NCBI GenBank assembly: GCA_003132445.1
Contig: PKXU01000088.1
Span: 105,942 to 169,941 of the forward strand
Direction of reading: 5' to 3'
DNA from: Acidobacteriaceae bacterium
GTDB lineage: Bacteria; Acidobacteriota; Terriglobia; Terriglobales; Acidobacteriaceae
Length of the DNA: 64,000 nt
Part shown: positions 13,582-16,160 of the stretch, in pieces
How positions within the stretch are numbered: position 1 is the first letter of the stretch
Layout: each line of letters begins with the position of its first letter
Program-made: the position numbers and the translations under genes
Notes under the pieces: model-generated
What the model saw: the letters and a program-made list of their open reading frames with translations, nothing else
Database searches by the model: none
Told to the model about the DNA's origin: nothing

Positions 13582-14280
13582 TTACGAGACGGATTCGCCG
13601 CCGTTCCCGTCGGGCGCACTGTCCTCCCATTCCGCATCGCAAGAGCGGCAATGCCACGCCGGGCGCTGCACCGGCAAGGGCACGCGCAGGAATGCGCTCA
13701 TGTATGCGATGGGGCGGTCCAGGGGCTGGAAGTTCACATCGAGGGACTGGCAGATAGGACAGCGCGGCTGTTCATACAGGCCTACGCCTTGCACGTAGAG
13801 ACCTTCGAGAATTGGTTCGTCGAGAATCTTCTGCGCATTCTCCGCATCCCCGACTTTCACTTTGAGTTTGATCCCGCCAATGAAGTTGGAAATGAACCAA
13901 TCCAGCCGAACCAGGTTGTCGTCCCCCAGAAAACATTCGATGCCGACCGATTCCAGACAGCCTTTGGCCAACAGAGCCTCTGGCAAATCGCGAAACTGGC
14001 GAACGGTCACAAGTTGCTGTAGTTCCAGTTCCTGCCGGTGTTCCGTCACCGCGTATTCGCAAGCTGCGTCGTCGGGATATTTCAGGTGCCGACGGTCCAG
14101 TTCGTCTTCGAGGGCTTCCCAGGCCAACTCGGTCAGCGAATCGGCACTCTGCGCCAGGCGCTGCAACTCTCCGTCGGTCATGGCAGCGTAAGTGGCCGTC
14201 AGGCGCTGGCGTTCGCGTTGGTCGTCCAGATAAGACTCCGACACTCGCTCAGCATACTTCGAGTGCTTGCCATCGGCCAA
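13582..14280 (-). CDS. DUF2007-like protein with C-terminal zinc ribbon
   Basis: 232 residues, no signal peptide. An N-terminal charged helical part (about 1-85) precedes a DUF2007-like ferredoxin-type domain at about 90-160 (LPEALLAKGCLESVGIECFLGDDN...GIKLKVKVGDAENAQKIL). This domain is found in putative signal-transducing proteins. The C-terminus has a CPICQS...CRSC pair, a likely zinc ribbon. Function unknown. It is convergent with the amine oxidase. Confidence 0.7.
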   Translation of the reverse strand: MADGKHSKYAERVSESYLDDQRERQRLTATYAAMTDGELQRLAQSADSLTELAWEALEDELDRRHLKYPDDAACEYAVTEHRQELELQQLVTVRQFRDLPEALLAKGCLESVGIECFLGDDNLVRLDWFISNFIGGIKLKVKVGDAENAQKILDEPILEGLYVQGVGLYEQPRCPICQSLDVNFQPLDRPIAYMSAFLRVPLPVQRPAWHCRSCDAEWEDSAPDGNGGESVS

Positions 14281-14329
14281 GGGGCCAAAAGAACAACGGC
14301 GGCCGGAAGGCGGATTGGGCGCGGTCTTC

Positions 14330-14375
14330 GCGGGATCCTACACTCCGCCTGAAAAGCGGCTGCGCTCAGGATGAC
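14330..14375 (-). repeat. Dispersed TCATCCTGAGCG-type repeat
   Basis: Read on the minus strand: GTCATCCTGAGCGCAGCCGC, then TTTTCAGGCGGAGTGTAGGATCC. One of the best-preserved copies of the repeat family in the window. It lies just downstream (in minus-strand sense) of the RNA unit terminator, before the DUF2007 gene. Confidence 0.7.
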
Positions 14376-14440
14376 TTCTACAAGAGGAACGGCGGGCGAT
14401 GAGTCCTGCGCGAAGAATTGCCAGAACAAGAAACGCCGAG

Positions 14441-14492
14441 AAAAGGAACGGCCCGCAGGGGCGTTGACAGAATCAACGCTGGCCTGCGGGCC
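14441..14492 (-). terminator. Rho-independent terminator of the RNA unit
   Basis: On the minus strand an interrupted stem forms: outer arms GGCCCGCAGG / CCTGCGGGCC (10 bp, perfect), inner arms GCGTTGA / TCAACGC (7 bp) and a 5-base loop, followed by GTTCCTTTTC. It fits an intrinsic terminator. It lies about 30 bases past the last conserved-looking pairing of the RNA unit, so it would end that transcript near 14445. Confidence 0.75.
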
Positions 14493-14771
14493 GCCCGGTG
14501 GACTGTTTGGGATTGACCAAGAGGTGGTCACTCTAACGTGGCCTCTACGGCAACTCCGGGTTCGTCTTAACGACGATCCTGACCGACCTGCGTCAGGCGG
14601 AATCAATCCTTATTCACCGGTAGTGTGCGGGCTGTAGCTTCGGGCGCGGTTCCGCGTCTGAAGCCCCGCTTAGAGCAACCGCTCTAAGTCTCAGCCACCT
14701 CACCTGGTCTTTGAACAGTACAACTACTGCCGTCAGAACTTGTCATCCGACCACCTCCTTTCCGGTGTTAT
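14450..14771 (-). ncRNA. Candidate structured RNA with short leader peptide (unknown family)
   Basis: No protein-coding frame explains this stretch, but it has promoter, body and terminator in order. The body (minus strand) begins with AAAGGAGGTGGTC at 14761-14749, whose last nine bases (GAGGTGGTC) pair perfectly with GACCACCTC at 14529-14521 near the 3' end, closing the molecule. Inside are several hairpins: CTTAGAGC/GCTCTAAG (8 bp), GGGCTTC...GAAGC with an inner CGCG-GAAC-CGCG, CCTG-ACG-CAGG, and TCGTC/GACGA. A 20-codon frame with ideal spacing after GGAGG starts at ATG 14746 and ends at TAG 14684. The RNA could be a regulatory or ribosome-binding RNA, an attenuator, or a dispersed element. 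I cannot assign it to a known family. Confidence 0.55.
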
Positions 14772-14775
14772 TCGC

Positions 14776-14805
14776 ACCTTAACGCTGGAGGCGAATTGTT
14801 GTCAA
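14776..14805 (-). promoter_or_regulatory. Candidate sigma-70 promoter of the RNA unit
   Basis: A consensus -35 TTGACA lies at 14805-14800. With 17 or 18 bases spacing the -10 region is TTAAGG or TAAGGT (14782-14776), a weak match to TATAAT. Transcription would start near 14770, directly before the AAAGGAGGTG block. The -35 is exact, the -10 is poor. Confidence 0.45.
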
Positions 14806-14824
14806 TACCGGGAGGGAGGCTCTT

Positions 14825-15323
14825 TTAGCAATGCCAGATTCGATTACAGACCTGAATTTGGGCGGTGCACAAGGCGACGGGCAACGAGTAGAGTTTTGCG
14901 ACGACGCAATCGCTGACACATTTCAGGTTTAGTTCCATATCTGAGCAATTTTGAACAGACACCAAATAAGCGACGATTATAAATTCACTGGGAGAGGTGA
15001 AATAACGTGCCCTCCCCGTTTCCCGTCTATGCTGGCCGATCAAGAGAATCTATGCGCTACCTCATTTTCTCGGAAGAGTGTCACGCGCGATGCGTGTGGT
15101 GTTTCAAATCGACCTCTTCCGTGAATGAAGAGACTATTCTCTTGCAACTAAGCTGCAAATAATCGGCGCTCTTGCGGGGTTTGAATTCTTTTTTGCAAGT
15201 CTTTCGAGTACCTAAGTCTCTGATGCGAGAACACTTTATCAACGCTGCTTGGGTGGGGAAGCGCATTGGTGGGCAAAGTGCTATCACTTTTGTTGGCCGA
15301 AGAACTAGAAAGTAGGAAAAGAT
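14825..15323. other. Intergenic region upstream of the ice-binding gene
   Basis: About 500 bases without a convincing gene. Short frames on both strands have no family resemblance. I see no strong hairpin, terminator or repeat; the only clear signal is GTAGGAAAAGAT just before the ATG at 15324, a ribosome binding site. The stretch is less GC-rich than its neighbours, which suits promoters for the two divergent units. Confidence 0.4.
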
Positions 15324-16160
15324 ATGAAACACCGCGCCGTTCGTCTGTTAGTTTTCTCGTTCTTACCGCTTCCGCTCTTGGTGCTCAGTGCTTTCGCCAA
15401 CTCAGTCAATCTGGGAACCGCCGGCAGTTATGCGGTGCTGGCCGGCTCGGCCGTGACCAATACCCTCGCAACTACCCTCAGCGGAGACTTAGGGCTATCT
15501 CCAAGTACGGCATACTCCGGCGGGGGAACGATTACCTTCGCGAGTGGAACGACCAATATAAATAACGCGGCCGCGCTTCAGGCTCAGAGTGATCTAACCA
15601 CCGGGTACCTCCAGGCAAAGAATTTAGCGTCCACTGACAACTTGAGTGGTATGGACTTGGGCGGGCAGACCCTCAAGACCGGCGTTTACTCTTTTACCAG
15701 TTCTGCCGGTTTGGCAACGGGGACGACGCTGACCCTGACGGGTACGCCCGGTGCACTGTTCGTTTTTCAGGTAGGCAGTGCGCTCACGACCGGAAGCGGC
15801 TCGTCGGTTATTTTCATCAATAGTCTGACGGGTAAGCCGATGACGGACCCGAACATATTTTGGCAGATTGGCAGCTCCGCAACGCTAGGTACAAGCACCT
15901 CGTTCGAAGGAAACATTCTCGCGCTCACCAGCATCACACTGGATACCAGCGCGAGTATCACTTGCGGGAGCGCCTTGGCACAAAATGGTGCAGTGACGCT
16001 GCAGGGTAATACAATCACTAATTGCGGCAGCAGTAGCGGAGGCACGGGCATATCGACCGTTCCAGAACCGGGTACGGTGGGAATGCTGGGAACCGGTCTC
16101 ATCCTGCTCGCCGGCGCCGCGTTTCGGAAGATGCGGCATCCGCTGGTGGTTAGCCGGTAA
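15324..16160 (+). CDS. Ice-binding-like (DUF3494) protein with PEP-CTERM anchor
   Basis: 278 residues: signal peptide (MKHRAVRLLVFSFLPLPLLVLSAFA), a DUF3494 ice-binding-type beta-solenoid domain at about 28-235, and a C-terminal PEP-CTERM signal. The domain starts with VNLGTAGSYAVLAGSAVTNT and has the family blocks LSGDLGLSP, LKTGVYSFTSSAGLATGTTL, FVFQVGSALTTGSGSSV and GNILALTSITLDTSASI. The tail (VPEPGTVGMLGTGLILLAGA then FRKMRH) is a textbook sorting motif, hydrophobic helix and basic end, normally handled by an exosortase. No exosortase gene is in this window. DUF3494 proteins bind ice or act as adhesins. Good GTAGGAAAAG ribosome site. Confidence 0.9.
   Translation: MKHRAVRLLVFSFLPLPLLVLSAFANSVNLGTAGSYAVLAGSAVTNTLATTLSGDLGLSPSTAYSGGGTITFASGTTNINNAAALQAQSDLTTGYLQAKNLASTDNLSGMDLGGQTLKTGVYSFTSSAGLATGTTLTLTGTPGALFVFQVGSALTTGSGSSVIFINSLTGKPMTDPNIFWQIGSSATLGTSTSFEGNILALTSITLDTSASITCGSALAQNGAVTLQGNTITNCGSSSGGTGISTVPEPGTVGMLGTGLILLAGAAFRKMRHPLVVSR

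Follow-up and report, generated by a model that had tools for sequence, protein, structure and literature searches.

A single-copy acidobacterial RNA with a short reading frame and a covarying helix on its last codons, apparently related to Ms_IGR-5

Introduction

What does a genome encode where a promoter box, a series of hairpins and a terminator follow one another and no protein gene accounts for them? The question is raised by positions 14441-14805 of the 64-kb stretch of DNA analysed here (the window). An earlier note had taken this locus for a transcription unit of its own, encoding a structured RNA with a short reading frame and closed by a 9-bp helix between its two ends that takes in the ribosome site, and had suggested an sRNA, an attenuator or a dispersed element as its nature. 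The analysis confirms the unit and places it on the minus strand. As judged from the sequences, comparison with relatives shows it to be a free-standing gene for a structured RNA, with a short reading frame as its 5′ half. The helix that is supported across the family is a different one from the closing helix, and it joins the end of the frame to a motif in front of the terminator.

Elements of the unit

The elements that had been named, a TTGACA box, hairpins and a terminator in this order, are all present on the minus strand (Table 1), and the 20-codon frame (14746-14684) indeed stands at ideal spacing behind its ribosome site, with 7 nt from GGAGG to ATG. That the locus is self-contained and encodes a structured RNA with a translated-looking short frame is supported by the homologues and the covariation described below. 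The −10 region is weak in the window copy; nearly all aligned relatives with upstream sequence carry TACTAAT or a close variant at its position, and similar hairpins with other loops occupy the terminator position (both by eye). A consensus scan of 13800-15600 found no sigma-70 promoter, and the terminator of the unit is not in its list. Among the parts listed for a 30-locus alignment, conservation extends to the −35 box, the ribosome site, the frame ends, the 3′ motif, the terminator and most of the −10 region, but not to the outer flanks.

The minus strand has an MFE of −147 kcal/mol compared to a shuffled mean of −118.4 (z −5.15; 0/100 shuffles as good). The plus strand folds even better (z −6.63), so that folding alone leaves the strand open; it is fixed as minus by the conservation of promoter, ribosome site and frame. 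Two open reading frames overlap the unit, at 14371-14637 on the plus and 14199-14606 on the minus strand. They were rejected as protein genes, since the loops there vary by single bases between relatives (by eye). In their upstream flanks, many of the divergent units L224-L239 share a G-rich stretch (e.g., GGGCGGG...GGGACCYGCCG) where other units have the TTGAC box (by eye).

Table 1. Features of the unit in window coordinates
Feature	Position	Strand	Basis
−35 box TTGACA	14800-14805	−	sequence; TTGAC at same place in 30-locus alignment
−10 region, weak in window copy (GTTAAG)	14778-14784	−	30-locus alignment by eye
AAAGGAGGTG	14761-14752	−	sequence
Ribosome site AAAGGAGGTGGTC, complementary to 16S 3′ tail GAUCACCUCCUUU (one G-U)	14749-14761	−	16S ends of relatives
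sORF, 20 codons, peptide MTSSDGSSCTVQRPGEVAET, ATG 14746 to TAG 14684	14684-14746	−	frame kept in relatives
Strands of the proposed closing helix, GAGGTGGTC and GACCACCTC	14757-14749 and 14529-14521	−	sequence
Helix P1, 5′ strand GGTGGCTG, inside last sense codons	14692-14699	−	covariation on A2 and A3; permutation
Helix P1, 3′ strand CAGTCCACC, immediately 5′ of terminator	14497-14505	−	covariation; permutation; part of conserved 3′ motif
16S-tail-like element GACCACCTCTTGGTC	14515-14529	−	14529-14521 is the SD partner in the closing helix; 14527-14515 pairs with 14709-14695 in the MFE
Stop-codon hairpin CTTAGAGC-GGTT-GCTCTAAG	14669-14688	−	sequence; conserved in genus
Variable middle domain, strongly reduced in compact relatives	14530-14668	−	alignments A1 and A2
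Intrinsic terminator GGCCCGCAGG...CCTGCGGGCC with T-rich tail	14441-14492	−	GC-rich hairpin in MFE

Homologues and distribution

BLAST finds the homologues that the earlier note had proposed to look for: the unit is present in 47 of 101 genomes, its own included. Searching named genomes with a two-part DNA pattern gave 87 matching stretches. The relatives found with the pattern belong to the Acidobacteriota, many of them to Candidatus Sulfotelmatobacter, apart from one Deltaproteobacterium (L081). A covariance model of 149 positions and 8 pairs, R2, matches 105 of 396 Acidobacteriota genomes at E values up to 0.001, and a sequence-only model, R1, matches 80 of the 396 without any match in family f2. 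Families f2, f3, f5 and f8 were reached via a 13-mer pattern, and nine of the 14 f2 genomes in the 13-mer search set have the unit, as read individually. In family f1, 42 genomes match R2 and two are listed without a match. Nineteen divergent R2 matches were read, of which 16 are units and three (L240, L241, and L242) are not; six further matches with E values of 2.9e-4 to 6.8e-4 lie outside these 19. Actinobacteria were covered through Rfam's model alone.

The unit occurs once in its assembly, which is 87% complete, and R2 gives a single match in 104 of the 105 matching genomes. The sole genome with two matches is G282, whose second match is false. The single copy per genome rules out a dispersed structured element, one of the possibilities raised earlier. 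A plasmid search with the L081 and L215 units returned no match, and viral contigs gave 0 matches to one two-part pattern.

A covarying helix at the frame end

RNAalifold, applied to the 23 diverse units of alignment A1, proposed one helix, in which the frame end GGUGGCUG pairs with CAG-n-CACC before the terminator. In the window this helix, P1, joins GGUGGCUG (14699-14692) to CAGUCCACC (14505-14497). It was evaluated on two alignments that have no locus in common. A2 is a MAFFT alignment of 30 diverse units with the 3′ ends set by hand at the pairing motif; A3 holds 18 units, of which 16 (L224-L239) were found with R2, a model that contains P1. Compared to shuffles that ignore the kinship among units, P1 shows two-sided changes in 4/8 pairs on A2 (3/500 shuffles as high) and in 3/8 pairs on A3 (1/500), and its covariation score is reached by 0/500 shuffles on either alignment; further pair types on A3 are not above shuffles (82/500). 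In A2, 95.7% of the cells are paired compared to 24-65% in slid versions of the helix, and in A3 97.2% compared to 33-69%.

When the 5′ strand was exchanged among 71 distinct combinations, the observed score was never reached in 1000 permutations, in a test that leans towards P1 through windows picked as the best partner of their own strand. Four of 127 units had been dropped from it (truncated or with N) and 12 of the 123 left out because their best site lies outside the 3′ motif context. In the swap table, the own strand is best in 73/97 for GGTGGCTG, in 1/4 for GGTGGCGG, and in neither single case of GGTAGCTG (0/1) and GGTGGTGG (0/1). Changes in one P1 strand are matched in the other, GGUGCCUG occurring with CAGGCCACC, GGUGGCGA with TCGCCACC, GGUGGCGU with ACGCCACC, and GGUAGCUG with CGGCUGCC; such matched changes are hard to explain without P1 pairing. 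In L186-L188 only seven of the eight P1 bases pair. The covariation looked for in the helices was found for P1, and the family-wide covarying helix is this pairing of the frame end with the 3′ motif.

Competing pairings in the window copy

The complementary strands of the closing helix of the earlier note exist, but this helix shows no covariation, does not form in the MFE of the window copy and is given a probability of 0.06 there. On A2, 74.6% of its cells are paired, and 234 to 339 of 500 shuffles are as high. A perfect downstream complement of the SD 9-mer is found in 65/72 genus-type units compared to 42/360 shuffles, and in 19/51 other units compared to 33/255 shuffles, some of these complements at unrelated sites. 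CCRCCTCTTGGTC is present in 55 of the 72 genus-type units, and the 16S-tail-like element GACCRCCTC in 64.

In the MFE of the window copy, the frame end (14709-14695) pairs with 14527-14515, and four SD bases (14755-14752) pair with 14500-14497. The predicted probability of the frame end pairing with 14527-14521 is 0.41-0.58, and that of P1 is 0.04. Forcing the closing helix costs 2.5 kcal/mol over the MFE, and forcing P1 1.2 kcal/mol. Since the window copy carries two GAGGUGG strands and two CCACC strands, they can be matched in two ways, and the RNA is predicted to have competing pairing partners. The pairing of the frame end with CCACCUC shows no covariation on A2 (74.0% of cells paired; 409 to 450 of 500 shuffles as high). 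R2 itself placed the 3′ part of the window copy on an internal ACCGG near 14617 and not on the 3′ motif. Within the genus, the closing helix may be one among several pairings that compete. A stop-codon stem of at least 4 bp is found in 16/21 divergent units compared to 42% of shuffled and 65% of swapped sequences, which is a weak control.

Ribosome site, reading frame and peptide

The ribosome site AAAGGAGGTGRTC pairs with all of the 16S tail GAUCACCUCCUUU. The 16S 3′ end was taken not from the unit's own genome but from the relatives L199, L201, L211, L218, L219, and L223, whose 3′ ends we take to be 16S. Among 14 distinct 14-mers with up to two mismatches, positions 1-13 keep the pairing to 16S with one exception. 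An SD position that is unpaired to the 16S tail is found in 6 of 163 loci (four distinct sources) and also in L229; L185, L194, and L195, which fall outside the two-mismatch table, have three SD mismatches with positions 10 and 12 unpaired. SD variants thus mostly keep their 16S pairing. The 13-mer alone is not rare, with 53 matches in 61 genomes compared to 31 for the reversed pattern, and its matches include 16S ends and unrelated sites. A second GAGGUG lies about 6 nt before the last sense codon, like an SD before a start codon.

The frame is kept in 85/85 distinct 5′ regions from a pattern search that did not require it, compared to 7.5% after interval shuffling; the test asked for an ATG or GTG 7-8 nt behind GGAGG and in frame with the conserved end, in relatives that are not independent of one another. 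Across relatives the frame starts 7-15 nt behind the ribosome site, the peptide ranges from 11 to 22 residues, and TAG, TAA, and TGA are all found as stop codons. In 16/16 divergent units the frame ends two codons past the E-V-A position (EVAxx-stop), and the residues there are E-V-A in 15 of the 16, which were not selected for E-V-A apart from a mild bias of R2. WT[CS]EVA occurs in the nine f2 units read and also in the Ms_IGR-5 (RF02471) consensus, as translated here. L202 keeps the valine with a GTA codon, and five units (L217, L238, L141, L142, and L151) alter the E-V-A residues and keep P1 pairing.

The codons of genus-type units differ strongly from those of 34 long ORFs in the window. 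AGT makes up 70% of Ser codons (8% in the window ORFs), TGT 93% of Cys codons (19%), and AGA 93% of Arg codons (5%), much of the latter from an invariant RPG; in the other units AGT reaches 54% and AGA 40%. The middle of the peptide is weakly constrained, with a pN/pS of 0.73 compared to 0.56 for the ends, in units that, like the 163-locus set and the strand-change units, were chosen for an in-frame GAGGTG or for a C-terminus of the form E[VG] and are no evidence for the frame or for E-V. Codon bias and weak middle constraint suggest selection for translation through an open, C-poor frame and not for a peptide sequence, and the sORF is apparently translated. NCBIfam gave no match for four of the peptides. 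A type I toxin was rejected, as the peptides are hydrophilic (rich in Ser, Gly, Arg, Thr, and Cys).

Relation to Ms_IGR-5

The earlier note had recognized no known family. For the window copy itself this holds at the level of scores: nowhere in the 64-kb window does any Rfam family score up to its cut-off, and RF02471 (Ms_IGR-5) scores 15.5 bits (E 0.35) against a gathering score of 45. It does not hold for three relatives, all with full-length matches. L081 reaches 47.5 bits, the f2 unit L212 reaches 47.0 bits, and among 149 Acidobacteriota genomes searched with RF02471 six gave matches, one of them above the cut-off (L141, 50.6 bits). The low-scoring match to the window copy runs from end to end, with model positions 1-184 over 14444-14768 on the minus, and correct, strand. 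Because this match is end to end and three relatives pass the cut-off, we take the window unit to be a homologue of Ms_IGR-5 through intermediates, though not a member by score, and place it as a divergent arm of RF02471. Ten divergent units gave no Ms_IGR-5 row in Rfam at E values up to 1, and RF02471 matched 0/14 control genomes, Corynebacterium included.

The two RNAs share their order of elements. Ms_IGR-5 has AGGAGGUGGUCC, GUGAGGUGGCUG, CAGUCACC, and a terminator, and the window copy holds AGGAGGUGGUC, GUGAGGUGGCUG, CAGUC(C)ACC, and a terminator in the same order (by eye against the consensus). As read here, the Ms_IGR-5 consensus also contains the complement GGUGGCUG/CAGUCACC; Rfam's consensus line draws CAGUCACC as unpaired, although the consensus itself can form GGUGGCUG:CAGUCACC. 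The window copy differs by a large extra middle domain and by its acidobacterial host: Ms_IGR-5 was described from Actinobacteria, whereas the nearest named records of the window unit are Acidobacteriota.

Several papers describe Ms_IGR-5 as an expressed RNA. Ribosome reads on MS_IGR-5 homologues are significant in both M. abscessus and M. smegmatis; the authors themselves caution that RNPs co-purify with ribosomes in Ribo-seq preparations (PMC4974804). Ms_IGR-5 was validated by RNA-seq in Streptomyces lividans (PMC8079986), and in S. avermitilis an sRNA transcription unit corresponds to it (PMC8780764). In M. smegmatis it overlaps a cold-stress sRNA (ncMSMEG15794c by the order of names) and, as cited in the same source, an sRNA from an Hfq-based screen (PMC10454040). 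The excerpts of the literature searched (including PMC4974804, PMC8079986, PMC8780764, PMC10454040, PMC3828370, and PMC4109619) state no function or peptide for Ms_IGR-5.

Two well-known structured RNAs were rejected as identities of the unit. The window is not matched by tmRNA (RF00023), which has six hits of 17-90 nt on other contigs of the same genome, all below the cut-off, and 6S RNA (RF00013) has no match in this genome and none at gathering score in the window. The genome thus has no 6S match and no tmRNA above cut-off; with the assembly 87% complete, this absence is uncertain.

Genomic context

The neighbours of the unit differ among the 18 loci read, and there is no common downstream gene. 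In the window, a DUF2007-like protein (13582-14280, minus strand; 21.4 bits against a Pfam cut-off of 25.7) lies downstream of the RNA, and an ice-binding-like protein with a PEP-CTERM sorting motif (15324-16160, plus strand) lies upstream. A protein similar to the DUF2007-like one is also found after the RNA in L002, and by eye the same holds for L033, L040, and L047. Proteins that are presumably NUDIX-like, by their motif, adjoin the unit in some loci. At f2 loci, a tRNA gene on the same strand lies downstream in six of the eight scanned (L207, L208, L212, L214, L215, and L216), that of L207 being Gly by its anticodon; in L209 and L210 no tRNA gene was found within the stretch scanned.

Proposed mechanism and alternative explanations

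A conserved frame with its ribosome site, a covarying helix on the last codons, a single copy per genome and the absence of a common neighbour have to be explained together. The explanation that fits them best, held with slightly less than even confidence, is a single-copy peptide-frame RNA homologous to Ms_IGR-5 that acts as a ribosome-gated RNA switch. The cycle would start with the capture of a 30S subunit by the strong ribosome site. The ribosome would subsequently translate the C-poor frame, which is rich in rare codons, and on reaching the stop codon would melt the frame-end pairing (P1, or the pairing with the GACCACCTCTTGGTC element in the genus) together with the stop-codon hairpin. 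The terminating ribosome may be kept in place there by the second GAGGUG, which is spaced from the last sense codon much as an SD would be. The 3′ strands set free by the melting could alter how stable the RNA is, or find new pairing partners in other RNAs or in the ribosome site. Since a ribosome on the sORF would open the frame-end pairing, the fold would report translation, and the state of the RNA, with any activity in trans, would reflect the availability of ribosomes. What we infer in this proposal is that the frame is translated, that the ribosome gates the fold and that there is an output in trans. The fold predictions for the window copy take some weight from ribosome gating and shift a little of it to an antisense sRNA.

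If the EVAxx peptide were the product, the unit would be a small-protein mRNA whose structure merely stabilizes or tunes the message. We rate this as unlikely. In its favour, the strong ribosome site and open frame suit it, E-V-A in 15/16 divergent units and WT[CS]EVA in f2 units and the Ms_IGR-5 consensus are near-invariant, and a valine kept with GTA in L202 could mean that the peptide itself matters. However, the EVA codons double as the P1 strand and as GAGGUG and are hence constrained at the RNA level, the five units that change E-V-A keep P1, and a middle pN/pS of 0.73, a length of 11 to 22 residues and four peptides without an NCBIfam match do not speak for a selected protein. Somewhat less probable still is a decoy for the ribosome or the 16S tail, in which 13-14 anti-SD pairs sequester the 30S subunit and the frame is incidental or serves to load ribosomes. 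Near-complete complementarity to the 16S tail, kept by most variants, and a further GAGGUG placed ahead of the stop codon as an SD would be are what such a role predicts, whereas a pure decoy needs neither the frame conserved in 85/85 regions nor a covarying 3′ helix.

A classical antisense sRNA would block the ribosome sites of target mRNAs with an anti-SD-like seed, either GACCACCUC or the 3′ motif. The 16S-tail-like element in 64/72 genus-type units and the overlap of Ms_IGR-5 with an Hfq-screen sRNA of M. smegmatis (PMC10454040) point in this direction; against it, many relatives have an element that does not match their SD (74.6% of cells paired), and the covariation of the 3′ motif is with the end of the frame itself, and we rate this role as improbable, a shade below the decoy. 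A short frame, hairpins and a terminator in order are also what a cis-acting attenuator or leader of a downstream gene would present, as the earlier note had considered; with neighbours that vary among the 18 loci, from DUF2007-like proteins in some genus members to NUDIX-like ones and the tRNA genes of f2, and no downstream gene common to them, it is very improbable. That the motifs stand together by chance could draw on the weak −10 box and on a scan that gives neither promoter nor terminator, but homologues, frame conservation and covariation reduce it to a negligible probability.

Implications and analogous RNAs

The ribosome-gated switch, if real, might extend to the whole family. Ms_IGR-5 and the acidobacterial RNAs could form one ancient ribosome-gated class, found at least in Acidobacteriota, Actinobacteria, and one Deltaproteobacterium, that would read ribosome availability through a start complementary to the 16S tail and through pairing at the stop region, and would pass it on in trans; we regard this as possible, but doubtful. 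What has been an orphan actinobacterial sRNA would thereby become a class of RNAs that is widespread, stands in single copy and carries a reading frame so far overlooked. It would have a covarying helix, drawn as unpaired in the Rfam consensus, and a link to the ribosome that can be tested. Should ribosome gating hold, RNAs of this class would serve quite generally to sense translation capacity, and would do so outside the model Proteobacteria.

Staphylococcus RNAIII and SgrS are examples of dual-function RNAs, with a short frame inside a structured RNA. The window unit resembles them in this respect, and no sequence relation is claimed. A leader-type peptide that acts in trans is peTrpL of Sinorhizobium (PMC7298713); peTrpL is encoded by a transcription attenuator, whereas the window unit has no common downstream gene. 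The Caulobacter sRNA CC2171 (RF01867) starts with GAAAGGAGGUGAUCCAGUG, the same complement of the 16S tail as in the window unit, but the printed part of its consensus has no GAGGUGGC. The best score of a relative with the CC2171 model is 30.3 bits compared to a cut-off of 75, and window positions 14300-15000 give no row at E values up to 10; the likeness is at most an analogy. In the CC2171 consensus the 16S-tail complement is followed by a GUG, and an analogous reading frame may exist there.
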